DNA from: Sulfurospirillum sp. 1612
Lineage (GTDB): Bacteria > Campylobacterota > Campylobacteria > Campylobacterales > Sulfurospirillaceae
NCBI RefSeq assembly: GCF_036556685.1
Contig: NZ_CP140614.1
Location: forward strand, 1,674,001 to 1,738,000
DNA: 64,000 bases
Direction: 5' to 3'
The translations under genes and the position numbers were made by a program. Positions 30,195 to 49,614 of this stretch are shown piece by piece (the stretch's first letter is position 1; the number at the start of each line of letters is the position of its first letter). Under the pieces are notes generated by a model. It searched no databases. It was not told the origin of the DNA and was given only the letters and a program-made list of their open reading frames with translations.

Positions 30195-30896
30195 TTAATT
30201 TTCGCCTTTACCGGCTAGATATAATGCAACCGCTTGAAATGGTTTCCCTTTGATTTTGCCGCAAAGGTTATTCTCTTGAATATACACTTTGGCTAATGCT
30301 GGTGTTGCAAATCTTATATCTGTTTTTTTACACATTTTGTTGTATATTTTTTTGCCCATCATGGCCATTTTGGCTTGTTTTTTCTTGATGCCCATAATTT
30401 CTTTTTTAAGATTTTTCCTGACAATTTTTGAAACTTGTGCATAAGACATAATCTTACCGCCAAATTTTTTAGAAAAATCCAACGCCGCTTTTTCTGTCCC
30501 AAAGGCATACTTACTTACCATAGACATGGTACTTGGTTTTTTAGAACCGACAACATAAAATGCTTTGTTGGCATCGATGAATTTCATCGTACTATTATCC
30601 ACAGCACGTGGTTTCACTACTTTTGTTCCTTTTAACATCGCTTCTTCTATCATACAGTGAATAGAACAATACTGATGTACTTTTCCATTGACCACTGCGG
30701 TATGATTAGTACGATAAAATGACGGCAATGTCATACCACACACCGGACAAAACATCTTGGCTTTACCACTTTGTTCAATCTGCGCAGTAGCTGGCGAAAC
30801 GGCTCTAAAGTCTTTCGCTACTTTCTTATCTTTTGCATTGGCTCCCACGACCAAAACCAAAGCCACACTCATCAAAGATAATAAAATTTTTCTCAT
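30195..30896 (-). CDS. Exported NosL-like protein with a C-terminal heme-less cytochrome-like segment
   Basis: 233 aa from ATG 30896, chosen for AGGAG 7 nt upstream and the signal peptide that follows (cleavage near GANAK); the open frame to 30992 adds an unrelated N-terminus. A NosL-like domain begins with MFCPVCGMTL (about residue 50), with a second cysteine pair in YCSIHC and the late FGTEKAALDFSKKFGGKIMSY element. The last 55 residues (GKKIYNKMCKKTD, NNLCGKIKG, AVALYLAG) recall a class I cytochrome c whose CxxCH has been lost. NosL proteins bind Cu(I) for NosZ maturation. It is a partial paralogue of the divergent gene at 31026. Confidence 0.75.
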   Translation of the reverse strand: MRKILLSLMSVALVLVVGANAKDKKVAKDFRAVSPATAQIEQSGKAKMFCPVCGMTLPSFYRTNHTAVVNGKVHQYCSIHCMIEEAMLKGTKVVKPRAVDNSTMKFIDANKAFYVVGSKKPSTMSMVSKYAFGTEKAALDFSKKFGGKIMSYAQVSKIVRKNLKKEIMGIKKKQAKMAMMGKKIYNKMCKKTDIRFATPALAKVYIQENNLCGKIKGKPFQAVALYLAGKGEN

Positions 30897-30923
30897 CTTT
30901 AACTCCTTTTTTAGATTTTGTGA

Positions 30924-30987
30924 ATTATAAGACAAGTTTGTTAAATTTGTGTTAATTAACATAAATTTAACAAATAAAAGATAGAAT
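30924..30987. promoter_or_regulatory. Symmetric divergent promoters around a 38-bp palindrome
   Basis: A 38-bp palindrome with one mismatch per arm covers 30937-30974, centred on TTAATTAA. Each arm holds two half-sites 11 bp apart (TTGTTAA-N4-GTGTTAA at 30938-30955 and its mirror at 30956-30973). Exactly 7 bp outside each end lies a -10-like hexamer: TATAAT on the minus strand (30929-30924) and TAGAAT on the plus strand (30982-30987). The architecture fits a dimeric activator covering both -35 regions. Confidence 0.65.
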
Positions 30988-31025
30988 TCCATAATATTTT
31001 TTATAAGAATAAAAAAGGAAACATC

Positions 31026-32150
31026 ATGAAAAAGGTTTTAATACTTGCCATACTTTTATGTGCGACTCATGTTTTTGCGCAGTTTTCAAAAGTCGCCACC
31101 CACACTCCAGTTTTAGTACAAGAGGCACACAATCCGTGGTGTCCTATCACAGGACAGAGTATTAAAGAGAACTATAAAACTTCTCTGATTGCTCGCTTGC
31201 AAACCAATGCAAGAGCACGACAATACAGTGCTTTAAGTGCTCTTGCCATCGACATGCAAGAGTATGGTATCGATACCAAAAGTATCCAAGCACTTGATGT
31301 TATCAGCCAAAAATATATCAATGCCAATAGCGCCTTTTTCTTAATAAATTCTCAAATCAAACCCACATTTGGTACCATCAGTGCGATTGCTTTTGCAAAA
31401 AAAGCCGATGCTGATTCTTATCGCAAAACCTATGGTGGCGACGTTGTTTCCTTTGAAGAAGCTCTCAAAAAAGTCACACAAAACCTCAAAAAATCTATCG
31501 CCTACATGAAGAAAATCTATAAGAAAAAAACCTATAAGATGGGAGAGCGAATTTACAAAAAAAAGTGTCAGGAGATAGACCCTACGGATTATATTGAGAT
31601 TAATGATTTGAAAAAGGAAATTGTAGATCAACACTTGTGCGGAACATTAAACGAGCGCTATTTGCAAGCACTTGCTTTATATCTTTGGAATGTCAAAAGA
31701 GCCGGAGATTTAGGAGAAAATGAAGAGCGTGTCAAAGTCAATGAAGATGAAAAATGCCCAGTTTGCGGTATGTTTACATATAAATATCCAAGATGGGCCG
31801 CTCAAATTTTCTTCAAACACAAAGATCATGAGCATCACTACTCTTTTGATGGTGTTAAGGATATGATGAAATTTTATTTTAATCCTTCAAAATGGGGAAA
31901 ATATGACTTTGTGACTCATGATAATATCACCAAAATGCTTGTGACGGATTACTACTCTCAAAAAGGAATCGATGCAAGAAGTGCATATTTTGTCGAAGGC
32001 AGTGATATTTATGGACCAATGGGACATGAATTAATCCCTTTTTCAACGCAAGACGAGGCTGAAAACTTCAAAAAAGACCACAAAGGTACTCGTATTTTGA
32101 CTTTTGACCAGATTAAAGAATCTGAAGTTTATGATCTTGATAACCGCTAA
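31026..32150 (+). CDS. Exported two-domain NosL-like protein
   Basis: 374 aa with a signal peptide (1-18, HVFAQ). The N-terminal NosL-like domain has a degenerate motif (WCPITGQS near residue 38, only one Cys). The middle carries GERIYKKKCQEID and QHLCGTLNERYLQALALYLW, a cytochrome c-like frame without CxxCH. The C-terminal NosL domain is complete: KCPVCGMFTYKYP near 240, a HEHHYSFDGVKDMMKFYF stretch and the YGPMGHELIPF-type end. It likely handles copper in the periplasm. It overlaps the 3' end of the convergent histidine-kinase gene by 4 bp and shares a palindromic promoter with 30195-30896. Confidence 0.78.
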   Translation: MKKVLILAILLCATHVFAQFSKVATHTPVLVQEAHNPWCPITGQSIKENYKTSLIARLQTNARARQYSALSALAIDMQEYGIDTKSIQALDVISQKYINANSAFFLINSQIKPTFGTISAIAFAKKADADSYRKTYGGDVVSFEEALKKVTQNLKKSIAYMKKIYKKKTYKMGERIYKKKCQEIDPTDYIEINDLKKEIVDQHLCGTLNERYLQALALYLWNVKRAGDLGENEERVKVNEDEKCPVCGMFTYKYPRWAAQIFFKHKDHEHHYSFDGVKDMMKFYFNPSKWGKYDFVTHDNITKMLVTDYYSQKGIDARSAYFVEGSDIYGPMGHELIPFSTQDEAENFKKDHKGTRILTFDQIKESEVYDLDNR

Positions 32151-34819: not shown

Positions 34820-37423
34820 ATGAAAAGCATAATCACAAAGACATCATCTGTTCTAGCTACCGTAGCAATGATGGCAACGTTTGCCAGTGGTGCGACTGAG
34901 TTAGATAAGGTAATGAAAGAAAGAGGGTTGTCACAACAAGATCTCCTCGCAGCGGCTAAGACCTATACTCCAAGCGGCGGCAGAGACAAGTATGTGATTT
35001 TTAGTTCAGGTGGGCAATCTGGGCAAATGTTAGTTTATGGTGTTCCTTCAATGAGACTCCTAAAATATATCGGAGTATTCACGCCAGAACCTTGGCAAGG
35101 ATGGGGATATGATGATGATACCAAAAAGATTTTGGCTGAAGGAAATATCCGAGGCAAAAAAATCACATGGGGAGATACCCATCACCCGGCACTTTCAGAA
35201 ACCAATGGTGTTTATGATGGTAAATGGCTTGTCGTCAATGATAAAGCCAATCCAAGAATCGCTGTTATTGATTTAGAAGACTTTGTTACCAAACAAATCG
35301 TCGTCAACCCGGTACTAAAAAGTGACCACGGTGGCGCTTTTTTCACCCCAAATAGTGAGTATATCTTAGAAGCATGCCAATATGCTGCTCCATTTGATAA
35401 TGAATGGCACTCTATGGATGATTATGCAGAATCATACCGAGGGGGCGTTACCATTTGGAAATTTGACCCTAAAAAAGGTAAAATCGATACTAAAAAATCA
35501 TTCACTTTAGAATTACCACCTTATATGCAAGATTTAAGTGATGCCGGTAAAGAAGCGAGTGATGGTTGGGGTTTTACCAATAGCTTTAACTCAGAAATGT
35601 ACACCGGTGGTATCGAAAAAGGTCTGCCTCCATTTGAAGCAGGCTGTTCTCGTAATGATACCGACTACTTGCATGTTTATAACTGGAAAAAATTAGCAAA
35701 ACTTGCTGAAGACCCAAAAAATGTAAAAATCGTCAATGGCGCTAAAGTCATTCCTATGGATGTTGCTATTAAAAACAATGCATTGTTCTTAGTTCCTGAG
35801 CCAAAATCACCACATGGTGTCGATGTTTCTCCTGATGGTAAATACATTGTGGTTTGTGGAAAACTTGATACTCATGCAACCGTATATAGCTGGGCAAAAA
35901 TCAAAAAAGCAATCGATAGTAAAGACTTTGTCGGTAAAGACCCTTATGGTATTCCTATTATTGATATGAAAAAAGCTGCCCATTGTCAAGCAGAACTAGG
36001 CCTTGGACCATTGCATAATCAATTTGGTAAAAACTGGAAAAAACAAGGTGAAATCTATACATCATTGTATGTTGATTCACAAGTTGTTAGATGGGACTAT
36101 CTCACTTGTAAAGTTGTTGACAGACAAAATGTAAGCTACAACATCGGTCACCTTTGCGGTATGGAAGGCAAAAGTGAAGACCCACAAGGTGAATATATCA
36201 TCGCACTCAATAAATTGGCGATTGATAGATTTAATGAAATCGGACCATTGCATCCACAAAATCACCAGTTGATTGATGTGAGCGGTAAAAAAATGCAACT
36301 CCTTTATGATATGCCAATTCCTCTAGGTGAACCACACCAAGCAGTCGCCATTCGTGCATCAAAATTGCATACAGATATGCGATATAAAATGGGTATCAAT
36401 CCATTTACTGGAAAAATCCACAAAGGTAAAACACTAGCTGGTCAAGAAAAAATCGTAAGAAAAGGTAACCATGTTTACGTATATGGCACGATGGTACGAT
36501 CACACATCAATCCAGAACATGTCAATGTCAATCTTGGCGATACTGTTACATTTTATCTCACAAACCTAGAGCGTGCCGAAGATGAGACACATGGATTTAC
36601 GGTAGATCAATACAATGTTCATGCATCACTAGAACCTGGTAAAACCGTAGCCTTAACATTCAAAGCCGATCGCGAAGGGGTATTTCCATATTATTGTACA
36701 GAATTCTGTTCTGCACTTCACTTGGAAATGATGGGTTATCTTTTAGTTAAAGACCCAAGCAAAAAATATGTATCCGTTCAAAAACTAAAAATGGCAAAAA
36801 TGAGTCCTGCTCAACTCAAAGCAGAATATGACAAAACGGTTGCCACAAATAGTGCGACTGATTCTGTTATCCAAAGTGTTGTGAAATTTTTGAAAGACAA
36901 TCATTATGAGAAATACCCAACGGTAAAAAATCTCGTAACCGATGCGCTTGATCAATACAGTAAAATTGCAGAACAAAAGAAACTCTCTGATGAAGCAGTC
37001 AAAGCAGGCAATATCAACAAAGCGATTTTGTTTGAAAATATGATTTGGCAATATATGGTAAAAACAGCCGATGTTGGAATCAGAGCCAAAGATTTATTGG
37101 TTAAGAAAATTGCAACACCAATGAGTGCAGCAGCACAACGAGGTCATGCAGCGTACCTAGAAGGTGGTTGTAATGGTTGTCATGTTATCGGTAAAGTAAG
37201 CTCTGGACCGGATTTAGTCGGGGTACTTGGAAGACATGAAAATGGTGAAAAATGGGTCAAAGAGTGGATTTTACATCCTGAAAAAATGTATGACAACGAT
37301 TACATTAAATCTATGACAAATTACTTCAACCTTAGAATGCCAAACCAAGGTATGACAGAAGCACAAGTCGATGATATGATAGAATATCTAAAATGGATTG
37401 ATAAAAACGCAAACTTGTTTTAA
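34820..37423 (+). CDS. nosZ: Nitrous oxide reductase, clade II with C-terminal cytochrome c
   Basis: 867 aa, longer than clade I enzymes. The signal is Sec type (about 1-24, ATFASGA), not twin-arginine, which defines clade II. A beta-propeller CuZ domain (about 40-530) has conserved His motifs such as DTHHPALSETNG and SPHGVDVSPDG. The CuA site FPYYCTEFCSALHLEMMGY is near residue 620. A cytochrome c domain is fused at the C-terminus (CNGCH near 783, axial Met probably in LRMPNQGM). It reduces N2O to N2 in the periplasm, accepting electrons from c-type cytochromes. It heads the nos operon. Confidence 0.97.
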   Translation: MKSIITKTSSVLATVAMMATFASGATELDKVMKERGLSQQDLLAAAKTYTPSGGRDKYVIFSSGGQSGQMLVYGVPSMRLLKYIGVFTPEPWQGWGYDDDTKKILAEGNIRGKKITWGDTHHPALSETNGVYDGKWLVVNDKANPRIAVIDLEDFVTKQIVVNPVLKSDHGGAFFTPNSEYILEACQYAAPFDNEWHSMDDYAESYRGGVTIWKFDPKKGKIDTKKSFTLELPPYMQDLSDAGKEASDGWGFTNSFNSEMYTGGIEKGLPPFEAGCSRNDTDYLHVYNWKKLAKLAEDPKNVKIVNGAKVIPMDVAIKNNALFLVPEPKSPHGVDVSPDGKYIVVCGKLDTHATVYSWAKIKKAIDSKDFVGKDPYGIPIIDMKKAAHCQAELGLGPLHNQFGKNWKKQGEIYTSLYVDSQVVRWDYLTCKVVDRQNVSYNIGHLCGMEGKSEDPQGEYIIALNKLAIDRFNEIGPLHPQNHQLIDVSGKKMQLLYDMPIPLGEPHQAVAIRASKLHTDMRYKMGINPFTGKIHKGKTLAGQEKIVRKGNHVYVYGTMVRSHINPEHVNVNLGDTVTFYLTNLERAEDETHGFTVDQYNVHASLEPGKTVALTFKADREGVFPYYCTEFCSALHLEMMGYLLVKDPSKKYVSVQKLKMAKMSPAQLKAEYDKTVATNSATDSVIQSVVKFLKDNHYEKYPTVKNLVTDALDQYSKIAEQKKLSDEAVKAGNINKAILFENMIWQYMVKTADVGIRAKDLLVKKIATPMSAAAQRGHAAYLEGGCNGCHVIGKVSSGPDLVGVLGRHENGEKWVKEWILHPEKMYDNDYIKSMTNYFNLRMPNQGMTEAQVDDMIEYLKWIDKNANLF

Positions 37424-42365: not shown

Positions 42366-43007
42366 ATGTTAGTAGAAACACGAAACGTATATAAAAAATT
42401 TTTAGGAGAGAATGTTTTAGATAACATCTCTGTGGATATCAATCATGGCGATAGAATCGCCATGATGGGTCCTAATGGCGCAGGTAAAACAACCTTGATC
42501 CGTGCTATATTGGGATTTTATCATATTGACAAGGGTTCTATTCGTGTCAATGGTCATGATCCGATTAAAGAGCGTGTCAAAGTCTTAAAAGATATTAGTT
42601 TTATCCCACAACTTCCCCCACCCATCAAACTCAATCTTGATGAGATGATTGCTTTTATTGTAAAAAGTTCAAATATATCCAAAGAGATGATATTTGAAGA
42701 GGCTCTCAAGATGGATTTGAATATCGAGGGAAATTTGAATAAACAATTTTTTAAACTCTCAGGCGGTATGAAACAAAAGTTGCTCATCGCCATCGCACTC
42801 TCAAAGAAAAGTTCTCTTTTAATCTTTGATGAACCCACCGCCAATCTAGACCCAAAGGCACGAGAATATTTTTATAATCTACTACATGATTTAGATGATT
42901 CGTGCTCTACACTTTTTATTACACACCGATTAGATGAAATTAAAGATTTGGTTAACCGACAAATCTATATGGATTTGGGAAAGGTAGTTGAAGATGAAAA
43001 AATTTGA
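42366..43007 (+). CDS. nosF: NosF, ABC transporter ATPase
   Basis: 213 aa. Walker A GPNGAGKTTL near 35, signature LSGGMKQKL near 132, Walker B LLIFDEPTANLDP near 152 and a switch His in FITHRLDE. Together with NosY it energises NosD-dependent CuZ assembly. The final codons overlap the start of the following nosL gene by 14 bp. Confidence 0.94.
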   Translation: MLVETRNVYKKFLGENVLDNISVDINHGDRIAMMGPNGAGKTTLIRAILGFYHIDKGSIRVNGHDPIKERVKVLKDISFIPQLPPPIKLNLDEMIAFIVKSSNISKEMIFEEALKMDLNIEGNLNKQFFKLSGGMKQKLLIAIALSKKSSLLIFDEPTANLDPKAREYFYNLLHDLDDSCSTLFITHRLDEIKDLVNRQIYMDLGKVVEDEKI

Positions 43008-43476
43008 AATCCTCGCTAGCGTATTACTATTATTGGGGATTTTCCTCTCTGGATGTCAGAAAGAAAAATCAACAGACCCAACAAACATGCACTGGGATAG
43101 AGACATTTGCGAACGATGCAAGATGGCTATCAGCGAGAAAAAATTTGCATTTCAAATCGTCAATCCAAAAACCTCAAAAGTCTATAAATTTGACGATATT
43201 GGTTGTGGCGTTTTATGGATGGATGAAGAGAAAATACCATGGAAAGATAGTGCTATCTTGTGGGTGACTGATGCCAAAGATGGCAAGTGGATGAATGCAA
43301 GAACAGCACTTTACACTGATGATCGCATCACGCCAATGGCTTATGGGATTGCCGCATACAGAAAAGAGACGCTACCAAAAGGAGCGACGGTTATTACGTA
43401 TGATCAAGCGCGAGATGTCATTTATGAAATTGAAAAATTAAACGTTCAAAAATTACGAGAAATGAGAACACAATGA
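42994..43476 (+). CDS. nosL: NosL-family copper chaperone lipoprotein
   Basis: About 160 aa from the ATG at 42994 (TTG at 42988 is in frame but less likely). The lipobox is LSGC (about residue 20). The metal motif is ICERCKMAIS near 39, followed by KFDDIGCGVLWM and PMAYGIAAYRKE, the standard NosL outline. NosL delivers Cu(I) to NosZ at the membrane. It lies between nosF and nosY, inside the overlapping operon. The closest relative in the window is the gene at 47905. Confidence 0.87.
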   Translation: MKKFEILASVLLLLGIFLSGCQKEKSTDPTNMHWDRDICERCKMAISEKKFAFQIVNPKTSKVYKFDDIGCGVLWMDEEKIPWKDSAILWVTDAKDGKWMNARTALYTDDRITPMAYGIAAYRKETLPKGATVITYDQARDVIYEIEKLNVQKLREMRTQ

Positions 43477-44300
43477 AAAATCTATTTTTAGTTGCTTACT
43501 TAGATATTAAAGAGTCACTAAGGTCCAAGTGGTTTTATGTTTATGCTTTGGTTTTCGGTGGTATTATGGCCCTATTTTTCATATCCGGAATTTCAGATTC
43601 CGTGGTGATGGGATTTACGGGATTGAGCCGATTGTTGCTTGTGTTTATCCAAGTCACTATCATCATCTTACCTATTTTTATCCTCATCACTACTGTCAAA
43701 TCAATTGTGGGAGATCGAGAAAGTAATGTCTTAGAATACATGCTCTCCTTCCCGATTTCTTTGGGCCATTATTATTGGGGAAAGGTTATCGGACGGTTTG
43801 CTACGGTCTTTTTACCCATTATTTTTGCACTCATTTTGGGTGTTGTTTTTGGCTTCTCACAAGGTGGCAACCTTCCCTGGGCGATGGTATTACTCTATAG
43901 TGCCCTACTCTTTTCCATGTGTTTTATCTTTTTGGGTATTGCATTTTTCGTATCCTCCATTGTAAAATCAACCGATATTGCAATCGGGAGTTCTTTTGCA
44001 ATATGGATTATCCTATTGGCATTTATCGATATCGCACTCATTGGATTGATGCTACAAGGCGATGCTAATGATGGTTTGATTATCGGTATTGCGCTACTGA
44101 ATCCAATCGAAGTATTTCGTATCGGAGCCATCTCATTATTTGACCCCGAACTCACGGTTATTGGGCCAGTTGCATATTATTTACTGGACACACTTGGCGC
44201 CAATGCATTAATGGTATATTCAATTATTTACCCTATAATTATAGGATTATTATTTTCGTTTTTGGGATACCTTGCATTTAAGAAAAAAGATTTACTATAA
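43473..44300 (+). CDS. nosY: NosY, ABC transporter permease
   Basis: 275 aa with six TM segments (about 19-40, 52-75, 100-122, 135-160, 170-192, 245-268) and the ABC-2-type cytoplasmic loop VGDRESNVLEYMLSFP near residue 85. It pairs with NosF and works with NosD. The ATG overlaps the nosL stop (ATGA). The small gene after it starts 10 bp downstream. Confidence 0.92.
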   Translation: MKNLFLVAYLDIKESLRSKWFYVYALVFGGIMALFFISGISDSVVMGFTGLSRLLLVFIQVTIIILPIFILITTVKSIVGDRESNVLEYMLSFPISLGHYYWGKVIGRFATVFLPIIFALILGVVFGFSQGGNLPWAMVLLYSALLFSMCFIFLGIAFFVSSIVKSTDIAIGSSFAIWIILLAFIDIALIGLMLQGDANDGLIIGIALLNPIEVFRIGAISLFDPELTVIGPVAYYLLDTLGANALMVYSIIYPIIIGLLFSFLGYLAFKKKDLL

Positions 44301-44310
44301 GGAGAAAGTG

Positions 44311-44775
44311 TTGAAAAAAATTATTTTAATTCTGGCCGTTTTATCTATGAGTATGTTCGCATCACAAATCAAACTACTCGATCAAAATGCCAGCGATATT
44401 GTCTATAAATTACCTCTCAAAAAATATCCGCAATTATTGTGTGAGGCGACACTTGAAAATGGTGATACCTTGCAGTTTGTATCGGTAAAAGCGATGATGC
44501 AAGTATTTTTACATCAAGATTATTTCAAGAAACATCACCTCTTGAAATCTTCTATCAAAGAGATGTTTGTGCAAGATTACTTGACGAAAGAAAAGATAAA
44601 TATCAAAAATGCTGTCTTTGTATTTGGTAGTAAAATCATCGGCGCACACGGTGATGATTTGATTCCACTCAAAAACCAAGCCAATGCAAAACTTTTTGAA
44701 ATGAAATATGGTGGCACTAAAATATTGCCATACCAAAAAATCACTGTTGGACTCATTCGTTATTTAGATATGTGA
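44311..44775 (+). CDS. NosL-like exported protein lacking the CxxC metal motif
   Basis: 154 aa from a TTG at 44311 with AAGGAG upstream. A signal peptide (1-17, MSMFASQ) is followed by a NosL-like domain: VSVKAMMQVFLHQDYF, IKNAVFVFGSKIIGAHGDDLIP and the end motif KYGGTKILPYQKI are typical of the C-terminal half of NosL. The N-terminal CPxCxM motif is replaced by a single Cys (LLCEATLENG). It may bind metal differently or be a structural partner of another NosL. Confidence 0.72.
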   Translation: MKKIILILAVLSMSMFASQIKLLDQNASDIVYKLPLKKYPQLLCEATLENGDTLQFVSVKAMMQVFLHQDYFKKHHLLKSSIKEMFVQDYLTKEKINIKNAVFVFGSKIIGAHGDDLIPLKNQANAKLFEMKYGGTKILPYQKITVGLIRYLDM

Positions 44776-44789
44776 TAATTGAGATACAG

Positions 44790-45104
44790 ATGAATAAAAA
44801 ATTGAGCGTTTCTATACTATTTTTTAGTGCGACTGTCATTCTTTTGACGTTCATACAAATTGTTTATCTTGAGAGCAGAAATACTCATATGAGCGAAAAG
44901 CGTTTGCTTGTCAAAAAAACTGCATTGCCAGATCTTGCACTCTCTACCGAAGCGCATTTTATTAGGCATCGCAGTTTGAGTGATCTCTTTTCTATTTTTA
45001 GTAATGCTCCGATGTTATTAGAGTATTTCCCCTCAACCTTTGTGTATCACTATTCTGGTGTGACACAGCAAAAAAACCCGGCAAGGATCGAGCTTGAAAA
45101 GTAA
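44790..45104 (+). CDS. Small membrane-anchored protein of the nos extension, unknown
   Basis: About 104 aa from ATG 44790 (GTG at 44772 possible). One TM anchor at about 6-26, then a soluble domain presumably outside the cytoplasm with no cysteine, two histidines close together (HFIRHR) and FVYHYSG at the end. I do not recognise it. Its stop overlaps the TTG start of the FtsX-like permease by 11 bp, so production is coupled to that transporter, and an accessory role in it is the simplest inference. Confidence 0.65.
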   Translation: MNKKLSVSILFFSATVILLTFIQIVYLESRNTHMSEKRLLVKKTALPDLALSTEAHFIRHRSLSDLFSIFSNAPMLLEYFPSTFVYHYSGVTQQKNPARIELEK

Positions 45105-46281
45105 ATTAAACTTCTTATTGTTTGAATTTTCTCTCTCCTCTATTTTTAGGCATGGAGCAAAAAATATCTTTATTTTTTTTGTTTTTACCCTCTTGACCTT
45201 TTTGTTAAGTTCGGTACTTTTTGTCTCTAATTCAATCAAAAGTGAGCTTGATGCGACCCTAGATTCATTACCAGATATTACCGTGCAAAAATTACAAGCG
45301 GGAAGACAAACCAATATACCCGTTTCTCGTGTTGATGAACTACTGGCTATCCAAGGAGTTAGCAAAGCCGTTCCGAGAATTTGGGGTTACTACTATTTTG
45401 CTAAGGCGGGAGTCAATTTTTCAGTCTTAGGAATTGATAGTTTTGATGATCAATATAAATCTTTGTACCGCAAACTCGCAGATCAGTATGATTTTTCAAA
45501 TTTTGCTGACAAATCTTTGATGCTCGTAGGCAAAGGAGTTGATGGTATTTTAAGAGAGAATTATTATAAAGGCTATTTTAACTTTATCAAACCCGATGGT
45601 ACATTTGTCAAGATGAATATCGGAGGTATCTTCACCGGTGATACCAGAATGGAATCTAATGATTTAATTTTGATGCCAAAAAGCAAAGCTTTAGAGATTT
45701 TTGGCATGCACGATGATGAAGCGACAGACATCGTCATCCGTGTTGCCAATCCTGTTGAAATCCCAAATATTGCTACAAAAATTAGTCTCAAATATCCCGA
45801 TTGTAGGGTGATTACAAAAGAAGATTTGGTGATTAGCTATCAAAATATATTTGATTATAAAGGGGGACTTTTCTTGGCACTTTTTGTCATCAGTGGGTTT
45901 ACATTTTTTATGATTATCTACGACAAGGCCAGTGGGCTTAGCTCTGAAGAAAAAAGAGAAATTGGAATTTTAAAAGCATTGGGTTGGAAGGTTGATGATA
46001 TTTTAAAAGAGAAATTTTACGAAGCTTTTGCTATCTCCTTTCTCTCCTTTATCACCGCCATTTGTATGTCGATGTTTTTTGTCTATTTTTTAAATGCCCC
46101 ATTCTTGCGCAATATTTTTATCGGATACTCTACTTTAAAACCCGATTTTATCTTGCCTTTTAGTCTCAATTTTCAAACGCTTTCGGTCATCTTTTTTGTG
46201 ACCGTCCCAATTTATATCGCCGCCACAATCGTCCCATCATGGCGTGTGGCATCGATGGATGCAGATGAGGTGATGCGATGA
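45094..46281 (+). CDS. FtsX/MacB-type ABC transporter permease
   Basis: 395 aa from a TTG with AAGGATCGAGC upstream. TM1 at about 22-46, a periplasmic MacB-like domain (50-245) and three C-terminal TM helices (about 255-278, 305-330, 360-385) give the four-TM FtsX topology. The coupling segment is EEKREIGILKALGWKVDDI near 287. Such permeases work by mechanotransmission on periplasmic clients or lipoproteins, not by moving small solutes. Within a nos operon it suggests a periplasmic assembly or extraction step. The stop overlaps the ATPase start. Confidence 0.85.
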   Translation: MKSKLNFLLFEFSLSSIFRHGAKNIFIFFVFTLLTFLLSSVLFVSNSIKSELDATLDSLPDITVQKLQAGRQTNIPVSRVDELLAIQGVSKAVPRIWGYYYFAKAGVNFSVLGIDSFDDQYKSLYRKLADQYDFSNFADKSLMLVGKGVDGILRENYYKGYFNFIKPDGTFVKMNIGGIFTGDTRMESNDLILMPKSKALEIFGMHDDEATDIVIRVANPVEIPNIATKISLKYPDCRVITKEDLVISYQNIFDYKGGLFLALFVISGFTFFMIIYDKASGLSSEEKREIGILKALGWKVDDILKEKFYEAFAISFLSFITAICMSMFFVYFLNAPFLRNIFIGYSTLKPDFILPFSLNFQTLSVIFFVTVPIYIAATIVPSWRVASMDADEVMR

Positions 46282-46955
46282 TTGAGTTCAAAAATGTCAG
46301 TAAAGTATTTGAAGTCGGCAACAAAAACCGCGTCACAGCGCTTCATGATGTCAATTTTAGTATCAATAAAGGAGAAATTGTCCTTTTAGAAGGTCCAAGT
46401 GGTAGTGGGAAAAGTACAATTTTATCACTCTTGGCAGCATTGAGTAAACCAAGTAGTGGCGAAATCATCGTCGCACAGAAAAGAATTTCAAAACTAAGCG
46501 ATGATTTTACAGCAATCTTTAGACGTGAAAATATCGGATTTATCTTTCAAAAGTTCAATCTCATTCCCACACTAAGTGCAAAAGAAAATGCGATGGTACC
46601 GCTCATCCCATCAAATCCTGATGTCAAACAACTTGAAGCACACATTCATACCTTATTTGAAAAATTTTCGATTTTGCCAAAATTAAATATCATGGCAAAA
46701 AATCTCTCAGGAGGAGAACAACAGCGTGTCGCAATCTCAAGGGCGCTTATTAATAATCCCTCTATCATCATTGCTGATGAACCCACAGCAAATCTTGATA
46801 AATCGCTCTCTTTAGAGTTTATAGAGATTGTCAAAAAGCTCAAAGATGGTCACAATACTATTATTATTGCCTCTCATGATCCACTCTTTTTTGATTTGGA
46901 TTTTATCGATAGGCGCATTTACATCAAAAATGGAGAGATAGACTCATGCTCTTAA
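46278..46955 (+). CDS. LolD/MacB-type ABC transporter ATPase
   Basis: 225 aa. Walker A GPSGSGKST near residue 38, Q-loop FIFQKFNL, signature NLSGGEQQRVAISRA near 140, Walker B IIIADEPTANLD and switch ASHDPL. It is of the LolD/FtsE/MacB class and must pair with the upstream permease (4-bp overlap). It is distinct from NosF, so the operon encodes two different ABC transporters. Confidence 0.9.
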   Translation: MIEFKNVSKVFEVGNKNRVTALHDVNFSINKGEIVLLEGPSGSGKSTILSLLAALSKPSSGEIIVAQKRISKLSDDFTAIFRRENIGFIFQKFNLIPTLSAKENAMVPLIPSNPDVKQLEAHIHTLFEKFSILPKLNIMAKNLSGGEQQRVAISRALINNPSIIIADEPTANLDKSLSLEFIEIVKKLKDGHNTIIIASHDPLFFDLDFIDRRIYIKNGEIDSCS

Positions 46956-47908
46956 CGCCTGAAATTATTTCGATTTTAACGCTTGATTTTATCTTTTTAG
47001 CCTTTGGGTTGATTGCCTTTTTGATTAGTCTCAAAATCTATCTCAAATGGAATATCGATTCAACACGCCCAGAACAATACAAACTCGAAAAACAGAGCCA
47101 TTTGGTAGCGACAATTATCAAGTACATCTTTATTTTAAAATTGCCGTTATTCCTATTTTTTGTCTTCACCTCCGATAAACTCTCTCACGTCATACCAGGA
47201 GCCATGTGTGCCGCAGGTGTGGTGGATTCTGTGAATTTTAGTACTGAAATGTTTTTCTTCAAGATATTAAACTTATATATCTTTGGGTTTTGGTTGGTGC
47301 TACACTCTTATGATATCAAAAATGAAAAACTCCCCTTTACCCGGTATAAATTTTTGCTCTATTGTATCGGCTTTATTTTATTGGTCATTGAGATATTTTA
47401 TGAAATTTCATTTTTTACCTCATTGGATATTAGCAAAATTGTCAGTTGTTGCGGGACTATCTTTTCTACCGCTTCTACTTCAGGTTTGGCCTTTATCTTC
47501 CAAATCGATAACCGCTATTATGTCATAGCGTTTTATCTCTCATTGAGTGTAGTTTTTCTCTTTTATTGGCTCAAAAATGATTTGCTTTTTTTAATCTCAA
47601 ATTTCATTTATCTCATCTTATCCATCATTTCATTGATTATGTTTTTTGGGACGTACATCTATCAATTACCGACACACCATTGCCCTTTTTGCATGCTACA
47701 AAAAGATTACTATTATGTTGGTTATGGGCTATATATCAGTCTTTATATCGGGACATTTTACGGTATAAGTGGAGCCATAATGGGCTTAATACTTAAAAAA
47801 CAGCAAAAGAGATACTACAATATCTCAATCACTTTTAATATCATATATGCGCTCATTGTCAGTGCGTATGTGATGGTTTATTTTATAAAAAATGGAGTAT
47901 GGCTATGA
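46946..47908 (+). CDS. Eight-TM membrane protein with CxxC motif, unknown
   Basis: 320 aa with about eight TM helices (10-33, 52-74, 95-113, 128-150, 190-209, 212-236, 255-283, 288-315). Cysteines cluster near membrane borders: MCAAG (about 90), VSCCG (about 170) and the segment HHCPFCMLQKDYYYVGYG (about 244), which recalls the CxxC of DsbB/VKOR-type thiol oxidoreductases but with two histidines in front. I do not recognise the family. The ATG overlaps the ATPase gene by 10 bp and the end overlaps the next nosL-like gene. It may be a redox or copper-handling membrane protein, which is inference. Confidence 0.65.
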   Translation: MLLTPEIISILTLDFIFLAFGLIAFLISLKIYLKWNIDSTRPEQYKLEKQSHLVATIIKYIFILKLPLFLFFVFTSDKLSHVIPGAMCAAGVVDSVNFSTEMFFFKILNLYIFGFWLVLHSYDIKNEKLPFTRYKFLLYCIGFILLVIEIFYEISFFTSLDISKIVSCCGTIFSTASTSGLAFIFQIDNRYYVIAFYLSLSVVFLFYWLKNDLLFLISNFIYLILSIISLIMFFGTYIYQLPTHHCPFCMLQKDYYYVGYGLYISLYIGTFYGISGAIMGLILKKQQKRYYNISITFNIIYALIVSAYVMVYFIKNGVWL

Positions 47909-48423
47909 TTAAAAAAACGATTTTAATACTGCTACCTATCTTGGTATTAGCAGGACTGTTTTATTACAAAACAACACAAAATATGACAGCAGAAGATATC
48001 AAAAATACCGACAAAGTACCACTCGAGTTCCAAGACAATAAAATTCAATGCCCGGTATGTAAGATGTACTTAGTAGGGAAAACTTTTAGTGCGCAAGTCA
48101 TTACCAAAGATCACAAAACACATTTTTTTGATGATCCAGGATGCGTGGCACTATGGCTTGAGTCCAATAAAATCGATAAAAAAGATGTCACCATCTGGAT
48201 TTATACTATTGATACCAAACGTTACATCGATGCAACAAAAGCACATTATAGTATTTATGATTATGCCGATCCGATGCATTATGGATTTGGAGCGTATGAG
48301 CATAATAAAAAAGGCTTTATCGACTTTGATGAGATGGTACTAAGAATGCTGCGAGGTGAGAATATGACCAATCCAAAAATCAGAAAAAAAATATTACAAG
48401 ATTTAAAAAAGGATCAACAATGA
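47905..48423 (+). CDS. Membrane-anchored NosL-like protein
   Basis: About 172 aa from ATG 47905 (ATGA overlap with the gene before). One N-terminal TM anchor at about 4-22, no lipobox. NosL metal motif QCPVCKMYL near residue 49, followed by FFDDPGCVALWL near 75 and PMHYGFGAYEHN near 125. It resembles the nosL at 42994 more than the others. It is probably a second copper chaperone tied to the ABC/CxxC module. Confidence 0.8.
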   Translation: MIKKTILILLPILVLAGLFYYKTTQNMTAEDIKNTDKVPLEFQDNKIQCPVCKMYLVGKTFSAQVITKDHKTHFFDDPGCVALWLESNKIDKKDVTIWIYTIDTKRYIDATKAHYSIYDYADPMHYGFGAYEHNKKGFIDFDEMVLRMLRGENMTNPKIRKKILQDLKKDQQ

Positions 48424-48944
48424 AAAGACCAGAACCAAGAGATGAAGAGATCATCCTAAATAGAAATAAATATATCGAATCCCAAACCGACACCAAAGGA
48501 ATTATCACCGATTGTAATGATTATTTTGCCGAAATTTCAGGATATACCAAAGAAGAGCTCATCGGAAAAGCACACAACCTCATCCGACATCCCGATATGC
48601 CACGCATCATCTTTAAACTTCTTTGGAATCGTATTCAAAATGGTCATAACATCATTGCCGTTATCAAAAACCTGGCCAAAGATGGCAGATATTATTGGGT
48701 TTTTACACATTTTGAGATTATTCGTGACATCAATACAAAAGAGATAACAGGTTATCGGGCCTATCGTAAATATGTCTCCAAACATATCACGGCGGTCCTG
48801 ACTCCTTTGTATAAAAAGTTGGTTGAACTGGAAAAAGAAGGGGGCATGGAAGCGAGTGAAACCTATCTCAATGCCTTTTTAAAAGAAAAAGGTGAGCATA
48901 TTACAATCGACAATCTTATGGAAGAAATCTATAGATTTTATTAG
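48420..48944 (+). CDS. Stand-alone PAS-domain protein (Aer/CetB-like)
   Basis: 174 aa, cytoplasmic. The PAS domain covers about 15-120, with the Aer/CetB-type pattern ESQTDTKGIITDCNDYFAEISGY, then LIRHPDMPRIIFKLLWNRIQ and DGRYYWVFTHFEI (each shown in part of the family's FAD-binding PAS). The C-terminus is helical (120-174). Campylobacter CetB is such a PAS-only energy-taxis sensor that works with a separate signal transducer. The start overlaps the stop of the NosL-like gene, so it is made with the nos operon. Confidence 0.82.
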   Translation: MKRPEPRDEEIILNRNKYIESQTDTKGIITDCNDYFAEISGYTKEELIGKAHNLIRHPDMPRIIFKLLWNRIQNGHNIIAVIKNLAKDGRYYWVFTHFEIIRDINTKEITGYRAYRKYVSKHITAVLTPLYKKLVELEKEGGMEASETYLNAFLKEKGEHITIDNLMEEIYRFY

Positions 48945-48990: not shown

Positions 48991-49614
48991 ATGAATCAAA
49001 CGCTTAGAGAATTAGAACTGTTTAAAGAATTAAATGATGAAGAGGTACAATATCTCGCTAGTATATCCGTATTGAGGTCTTATGATAAAGACAGTATCGT
49101 GTTTTATAGCGGCGAGGAATCCTCGTACCTCCATGTCCTCATAGAGGGAAGTGTCAAGATTTATAAAAGTACGCAGAAAAACAATGAGATTACACTCAAA
49201 AAAATCACACGCCCCTCATTAATTGCTGAATTATCCAACTTCAAACACATTCCATACCCATCAAATTGTGCCACGCTGAGTGACTCAAAAATCTTATTGG
49301 TGGATTATAAAAAGTTTGAAGAAATCATCTTGCAAAATAGCAGTTATCTCAGACGTTTTATGGATTCGATGGCTGAATCATTGGTAGACCTCAATAGAGT
49401 CGTCGCGACTTTTGCCCTCGATGCTACGGCCAAAGTGGCAAAATATATCTTTGAATTTGAAGAAGACTTTAAAAAAAATACCTTCATTCAATCCGCCACG
49501 CTTCTTAATATGACCCCTGAGACGTTCTCACGAAGTATCAAAAAGCTCAAAGATGAAGGAGCGTTGCGTGATAAAAAAACAGCCGATAAAGAGAAATTAA
49601 AAGACTACTTCTAA
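48991..49614 (+). CDS. Crp/Fnr-family transcriptional regulator of the nos operon
   Basis: 207 aa. The cyclic-nucleotide-type beta-roll spans about 1-115 and lacks the Fnr cysteine cluster (only one Cys, in NCATL), so it does not hold an oxygen-labile Fe-S centre of Fnr type. The C-terminal HTH has LNMTPETFSRSIKKLKDEG near residue 172; the E-T-x-S-R pattern matches the Fnr recognition helix that reads TTGAT. Nss-type Crp/Fnr proteins of Wolinella control N-oxide respiration, and this is a likely relative. It is 46 bp after the PAS gene and overlaps citG convergently by 18 bp. Confidence 0.85.
   Translation: MNQTLRELELFKELNDEEVQYLASISVLRSYDKDSIVFYSGEESSYLHVLIEGSVKIYKSTQKNNEITLKKITRPSLIAELSNFKHIPYPSNCATLSDSKILLVDYKKFEEIILQNSSYLRRFMDSMAESLVDLNRVVATFALDATAKVAKYIFEFEEDFKKNTFIQSATLLNMTPETFSRSIKKLKDEGALRDKKTADKEKLKDYF

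Follow-up and report, generated by a model that had tools for sequence, protein, structure and literature searches.

A block of five overlapping genes, here named M2 to M6, lies within the clade II nos operon of Sulfurospirillum sp. 1612 and encodes a small anchored protein, an ABC permease and its ATPase, a predicted eight-helix membrane protein and a NosL-like protein. The block is not a product of chance, since its homologues are conserved across many genomes, and the constant partner of its membrane protein M5, both in the Campylobacterota and in a second phylum, is NosL. On balance, we favour the view that M2-M6 function as a NosL-linked ABC machine that would pass Cu(I) between M5 and carriers of the NosL type, and thereby serve several copper enzymes.

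The added block of the nos operon

The block was recognized in a 64-kb stretch of DNA (the window, the whole of which was analysed) from a complete genome of 2.38 Mb, the nearest named relatives of which are Sulfurospirillaceae. The clade II nos operon of the window opens with nosZ at 34820, followed by nosB, D, G, C1, C2, H, F, L and Y; the genes named below are on the + strand unless otherwise stated. The product of nosZ (34820..37423) is a clade II Sec-type nitrous-oxide reductase with a C-terminal haem c motif (TIGR04246, 865 bits against a cut-off of 625), while nosF, nosL (encoding a lipobox and CERCKM) and nosY occupy 42366..44300. A preliminary description of this DNA, made from its letters only, placed six reading frames with coupled overlaps after nosFLY, and all six were found where they had been placed. 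The first, M1 (44311..44775), encodes a NosL-domain protein without CxxCxM (Pfam PF05573, E = 1e-13). It had been counted as part of the added block, but for 44 of the 49 nosY genes in the fetched loci, that of a Wolinella-type genome included, the gene directly after nosY encodes one such NosL-domain protein. M1 is thus a standard nos gene, and the added block comprises M2-M6. The CxM motif is absent from the M1 homologues (0/27), and M1 is similar to domain 2 of the double NosL described below (31% identity, E = 5e-16). It had also been remarked that the Wolinella nos cluster is not described with such a set, and this holds: genes like M1 and M6 are present in the Wolinella-type nos cluster, and M2-M5 are absent.

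Each of the M2-M6 frames overlaps its neighbour by a few bases. A terminator scan of the block gave matches above those of shuffled sequences, yet none between M1 and M2, and the matches of a promoter scan were close to the chance level. M6 is followed, with an ATGA overlap, by a gene for a PAS-domain protein (48420..48944) and then by one for a CRP/FNR-family regulator (48991..49614). The PAS-domain gene is also the next gene in genome G330, where it is 80% identical, and homologues of it occur near other copies of the M2-M6 block. M2 (44790..45104) encodes a protein of 104 amino acids with a single anchor and the pattern LPDLA...RHRS...FPSTF; profile searches of Pfam and NCBIfam returned no family for it, and its homologues have the same place before M3 in other loci.

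M3 (45094..46281) encodes a LolC/E-MacB-like permease (FtsX domain PF02687, E = 1e-9; NCBIfam lolCE, E = 5e-13), and M4 (46278..46955), joined to it through an ATGA overlap, encodes a LolD-like ATPase (PF00005, E = 5e-34; TIGR02211, E = 3e-56). In the AlphaFold2 model of M3 (pLDDT 80.9), one helix is followed by a predicted periplasmic domain (residues 58-254, approximately) and then by three helices, and a Foldseek search with this model retrieved LolE (E = 2.5e-15), MacB (E = 8e-14) and HrtB of the HrtBA exporter (E = 3e-8). Four predicted helices, a domain between helices 1 and 2 and an FtsX domain are the features of the Type VII (MacB/FtsX) ABC transporters, and the earlier suggestion of a mechanotransmissive type of ABC system is therefore sustained by the model. 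While the fold and topology of M3 and its LolD-like ATPase are like those of LolCDE, MacB and FtsEX, M3-M4 differ from these systems in falling below all of the family cut-offs (M3 with 48.7 of 362 bits for TIGR02212, M4 with 190 of 308 bits for TIGR02211), in having one permease gene, in being followed by M5 and in their linkage to NosL. A stronger lolCE-type match is encoded elsewhere in the same genome, and hence M3 is probably not the Lol permease of the cell. The known machine for CuZ assembly, NosDFY with NosL, is likewise an ABC transporter with the NosL copper chaperone at its periplasmic face. However, NosY is an ABC-2 type permease (PF12679) with NosD as partner, whereas M3 is of the FtsX/LolC-E type, and so stands outside the NosDFYL set, and has M5; nosDFY are separate genes of the same operon.

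M5 (46946..47908) encodes a protein of 320 amino acids. Its earlier designation as an 8-TM protein is backed by the AlphaFold2 model, in which eight helices are predicted (pLDDT 84.6, pTM 0.81). Neither Pfam nor NCBIfam profiles place M5 in a family; no PDB relative was found by sequence, and the best hit of a PDB fold search (E = 0.43) was no match. Six residues, C88, C168, C169, H244, C246 and C249, are invariant and reside in the loops that follow helices 2, 4 and 6, the corresponding motifs GAMC, CC and HxCxxC being kept in 136 of 136 M5 homologues and in the copies from the second phylum too. Lys and Arg sit in the opposite loops, and the Cys/His loops are thus all predicted to be on one face of the membrane, the periplasmic one. 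A role in thiol or sulfur chemistry would suit these Cys and His residues equally well.

NosL-type proteins of the block and upstream of nosZ

M6 (47899..48423) encodes a membrane-anchored NosL-like protein with CPVCKM that shares 33% identity with the NosL of the operon (E = 2e-17). It was matched to NosL by similarity but missed by the Pfam NosL model, and a search for sequence relatives in the PDB found none. Two further NosL genes form a divergent pair, 33 bp apart, upstream of nosZ: one on the - strand (30195..30992) encodes a NosL-type protein of 265 amino acids as called, with CPVCGM (PF05573, E = 1e-14) and a true start more likely near residue 33; the other (31026..32150, + strand) encodes a tandem double NosL of 374 amino acids with a Sec-type signal and CPVCGM in its second domain (PF05573, E = 1e-34). 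Membership of the NosL family is thus given by PF05573 and motif for the upstream proteins, and for M6 by similarity together with its motif. In two loci of family f8, Sulfurimonas-like as judged by named relatives (L039 and L040), short NosL, double NosL, M2, M3, M4, M5, NosL and a CRP regulator make up one continuous cassette. Since this cassette is headed by the same two NosL genes, the window contains the whole set, split around nosZ; of the set as originally delimited, the M2-M6 block stands, and the two NosL genes at 30195-32150 had lain outside it.

NosL binds Cu(I), probably via CxM, and for clade II NosL the CxxCxM sequence is the likely Cu(I)-binding motif (PMC6530538). This motif is kept in 80 of 81 double-NosL homologues and in all 26 of the short NosL proteins, and the M6 proteins of mcc operons have lost CxM in about half of cases. 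By a simple pattern search, 40 of 48 NosL proteins of nos operons are predicted to be lipoproteins, and the NosLs of the module rarely are (double NosL, 2/81; short NosL, 1/26); for M6 the figure was 24/62, and for the M6 of mcc operons 0/12. At another locus (L189:7594-10329), a 911-aa protein fuses 4Fe-4S (Fer4_5) and NosL domains and adjoins a second NosH-like gene.

Distribution of the block and its known counterparts

Among 347 Campylobacterota genomes, M5 was found in 136 and nosZ in 109; the sulfite reductase MccA, counted as true where its identity to the S. diekertiae protein reached 63% or more, was found in 51. NosZ, like MccA, is a periplasmic copper enzyme (PMC7558416). All 51 MccA genomes possess M5, the distance from mccA to M5 was 9.6-13.3 kb in each of the 27 genomes measured, and the mcc-type copies constitute one clade of the M5 tree (99*, the star denoting a well-supported branch). 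With nosZ the association is looser: the two occur together in 86 of the 109 nosZ genomes (Fisher p = 9e-25, a statistic which, like the other co-occurrence values here, counts genomes and not independent events, the pattern being repeated in the second phylum), and at least 20 genomes have their best M5 no more than 25 kb from nosZ. The remaining 23 nosZ genomes have no M5, which is therefore not needed for NosZ as such; conversely, 50 of the 136 M5 genomes have no nosZ, and 38 have neither nosZ nor mccA. The position within nos operons also varies: the block is found after nosY-M1 (the window and genomes G330 and G194), between nosL and nosY (S. cavolei, S. diekertiae), upstream of nosZ (L038) and between nosF and nosL (L142). 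In the tree of M5, the nos context must have changed at least 20 times on well-supported branches, although loci shortened by contig ends may explain some of these changes, and it would thus appear that the block has entered and left nos operons many times. Copies borne on plasmids were looked for and none was found. In the Sulfurospirillum genomes G205, G208 and G247, M5 is present in as many as three copies, of nos-linked, mcc-linked and free-standing kinds. In a Wolinella-like genome (G166; L133:5522-9425), a 396-aa reading frame on the opposite strand splits nosZ into two halves.

The 38 genomes with M5 and neither enzyme were searched for other targets. No target enzyme was found to adjoin the block or its NosL genes, the neighbours of the latter being mostly housekeeping genes with no common enzyme among them, and a lactonase-type NosZ gave no match above cut-off in these genomes. 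Campylobacter-type genomes without M5 commonly encode a group of MccA-like octahaem paralogues (46-52% identity); as a candidate target this group was rejected, its association with M5 being negative (M5 in 7 of 40). What all 38 genomes do possess is a PF05573 protein, mostly the double NosL, compared with 3 of 20 M5-negative genomes tested, all three of which have nosZ (Fisher p = 6e-12).

The same partnership was observed in a second phylum (the first genome was filed as Acidobacteria, and the phylum name is used as filed), where M5 is present in 5 of 149 genomes. High-scoring NosL (E below 1e-20, a limit chosen after the scores were seen) was found in 5/5 of these genomes versus 1/144 of the others (p = 1e-8), and nosZ in one of the five, being absent from the other four. 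The order NosL, FtsX, ATPase, M5 is maintained in most of these loci; one copy (L127/L207), close to those of the Campylobacterota, may represent a misbinned contig or a transfer. Genes like hemA and hemC lie within about 10 kb of the module at L202, and a radical-SAM gene was seen at L203. The earlier association of the ABC system with thiol or metal proteins is thus upheld by a NosL-type protein in 38/38 Campylobacterota genomes without nosZ or mccA and in 5/5 M5 genomes of the second phylum. As to occurrence apart from nosZ or copper genes, a point that the preliminary description had raised, the block is widespread without nosZ, and NosL was present in every case tested.

Homologous sets had been seen before. 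The nos cluster of S. cavolei was noted in 2016 to contain an insertion of five genes, an ABC permease, an ATPase and others listed as hypothetical, to which no function was given (PMC4794192). Located between nosL and nosY, this insertion (a hypothetical gene, the permease, the ATPase and two hypothetical genes) corresponds to M2-M6 as found in loci L034, L093 and L136 of that group; it differs from the block of the window in its place in the operon, and the paper gives no wider distribution (PMC4794192). A second counterpart is the downstream part of the mcc cluster of Wolinella succinogenes, where NosL, FtsX, LolD-like, M5 and M6 genes have the order of the window block. In the Wolinella-type locus L131 the genes run mccA, 4Fe-4S, NrfD-like, CcsBA, UPF0093, Sel1, NosL, FtsX, LolD-like, M5 and M6, so that mccA, the 4Fe-4S gene and mccD all precede the copy. 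Relative to the window block, no M2 was detected in the Wolinella mcc copy and its M5 is 33% identical; mcc copies in general have an M6 without CxM in many members and would serve MccA rather than NosZ. The order from NosL to M6 is common to Wolinella-, Sulfurospirillum- and Campylobacter-type mcc loci. By counting letters, the Wolinella mcc copy would correspond to mccH to mccL, and MccL has been termed a copper chaperone. In the open-access literature, no paper was found that assigns a function to the Wolinella-type ABC and M5 genes or that treats NosL and either FtsX or LolD as parts of one system. Accordingly, the earlier term "undescribed" was nearly right: it applies to the function, and not to the genes, which had been noted in S. 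cavolei and have a homologous set in the Wolinella mcc cluster.

Proposed function and alternative readings

Given that both enzymes, NosZ and MccA, contain copper and that the carriers keep CxxCxM almost without fail, Cu(I) is the simplest common cargo, and an ATP-driven transfer of Cu(I) between M5 and the NosL-type carriers is therefore proposed. Two copies each of M3 and M4 would form a pump of the LolCDE/MacB type in the inner membrane, with M2 presumably a further subunit of the complex. M5 would stand beside this pump, its predicted periplasmic cluster of five Cys and one His being a likely Cu(I) site. Hydrolysis of ATP by M4 would move the periplasmic domains of M3 and thereby allow Cu(I) to pass between M5 and the carriers, namely M6, the double NosL, the 265-aa NosL and NosL itself. 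These in turn, if the direction of transfer is as we suppose, would bring Cu(I) to the copper enzymes: to the CuZ site of NosZ in this operon, to the haem-copper site of MccA in mcc operons and to some other target elsewhere.

Other readings of the same genes have been weighed. That M5 and the pump instead keep the NosL cysteines reduced, or supply sulfur for copper-sulfur sites, with a cargo other than copper, would be in keeping with the five invariant Cys of M5, which include a CC pair and HxCPxC, with the thioredoxin-like gene after the Wolinella mcc copy, and with the presence, in 11 loci, of a gene for a DsbD-type membrane protein (PF13386) in the neighbourhood of the block, often right after M6. 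We nevertheless think this rather unlikely: M5 has no relative among Dsb, VKOR or DsbD proteins by sequence or fold, its constant partner is NosL and not a thiol carrier, and we know of no need for sulfide at the haem-copper site of MccA. The loci with the DsbD-type gene near M6 include L043, L050, L123, L156, L158, L164 and L170. A more distant prospect still is an HrtBA-like exporter that handles haem and was recruited to haem-protein operons, as might be suggested by the HrtB-like fold of M3, the CcsBA-type haem lyase of mcc operons and the hemA/hemC genes within about 10 kb in some second-phylum genomes; NosL is no haem protein, M2-M6 contain no CxxCH motif and the haem genes are near in some genomes only, and this reading is very improbable.

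Two further possibilities had been put forward in the preliminary description. The extraction of NosL lipoproteins from the inner membrane by M3-M4, acting as a LolCDE, has been weakened and is unlikely, despite LolC/E and LolD being the nearest relatives of M3 and M4 and despite the lipoprotein signals of most nos NosLs. The NosLs of the module seldom carry such signals, M3 and M4 score below the Lol cut-offs in a genome with another lolCE-type gene, and the scheme leaves M5 without a role. A role confined to NosZ, in its copper loading or repair, would account for the location of the block in this operon and near nosZ in others, yet we give it little credence. With M5 in every MccA genome and beside mccA where measured, in 38 genomes with neither enzyme, and without nosZ in 50 of 136 Campylobacterota and four of five second-phylum genomes, service to NosZ specifically is refuted as the general role.

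Transfer of Cu(I) between M5 and NosL-type carriers hence remains the reading that we prefer, and more tentatively it may be extended. M3-M4-M5 might constitute an unrecognised and general ATP-driven periplasmic machine for Cu(I), acting for NosL chaperones in two or more phyla. M5 would then found a new membrane copper protein family, and the operons of NosZ and MccA would have adopted the block, those of NosZ repeatedly. M5 represents, in any event, a protein family without a model in Pfam or NCBIfam. NosZ is the enzyme by which the greenhouse gas N2O is destroyed biologically, and the block is shared by the operons of N2O and sulfite reductases; its conserved ABC system and Cys-rich M5 thus provide a testable candidate for the step by which copper would reach NosL and then CuZ.
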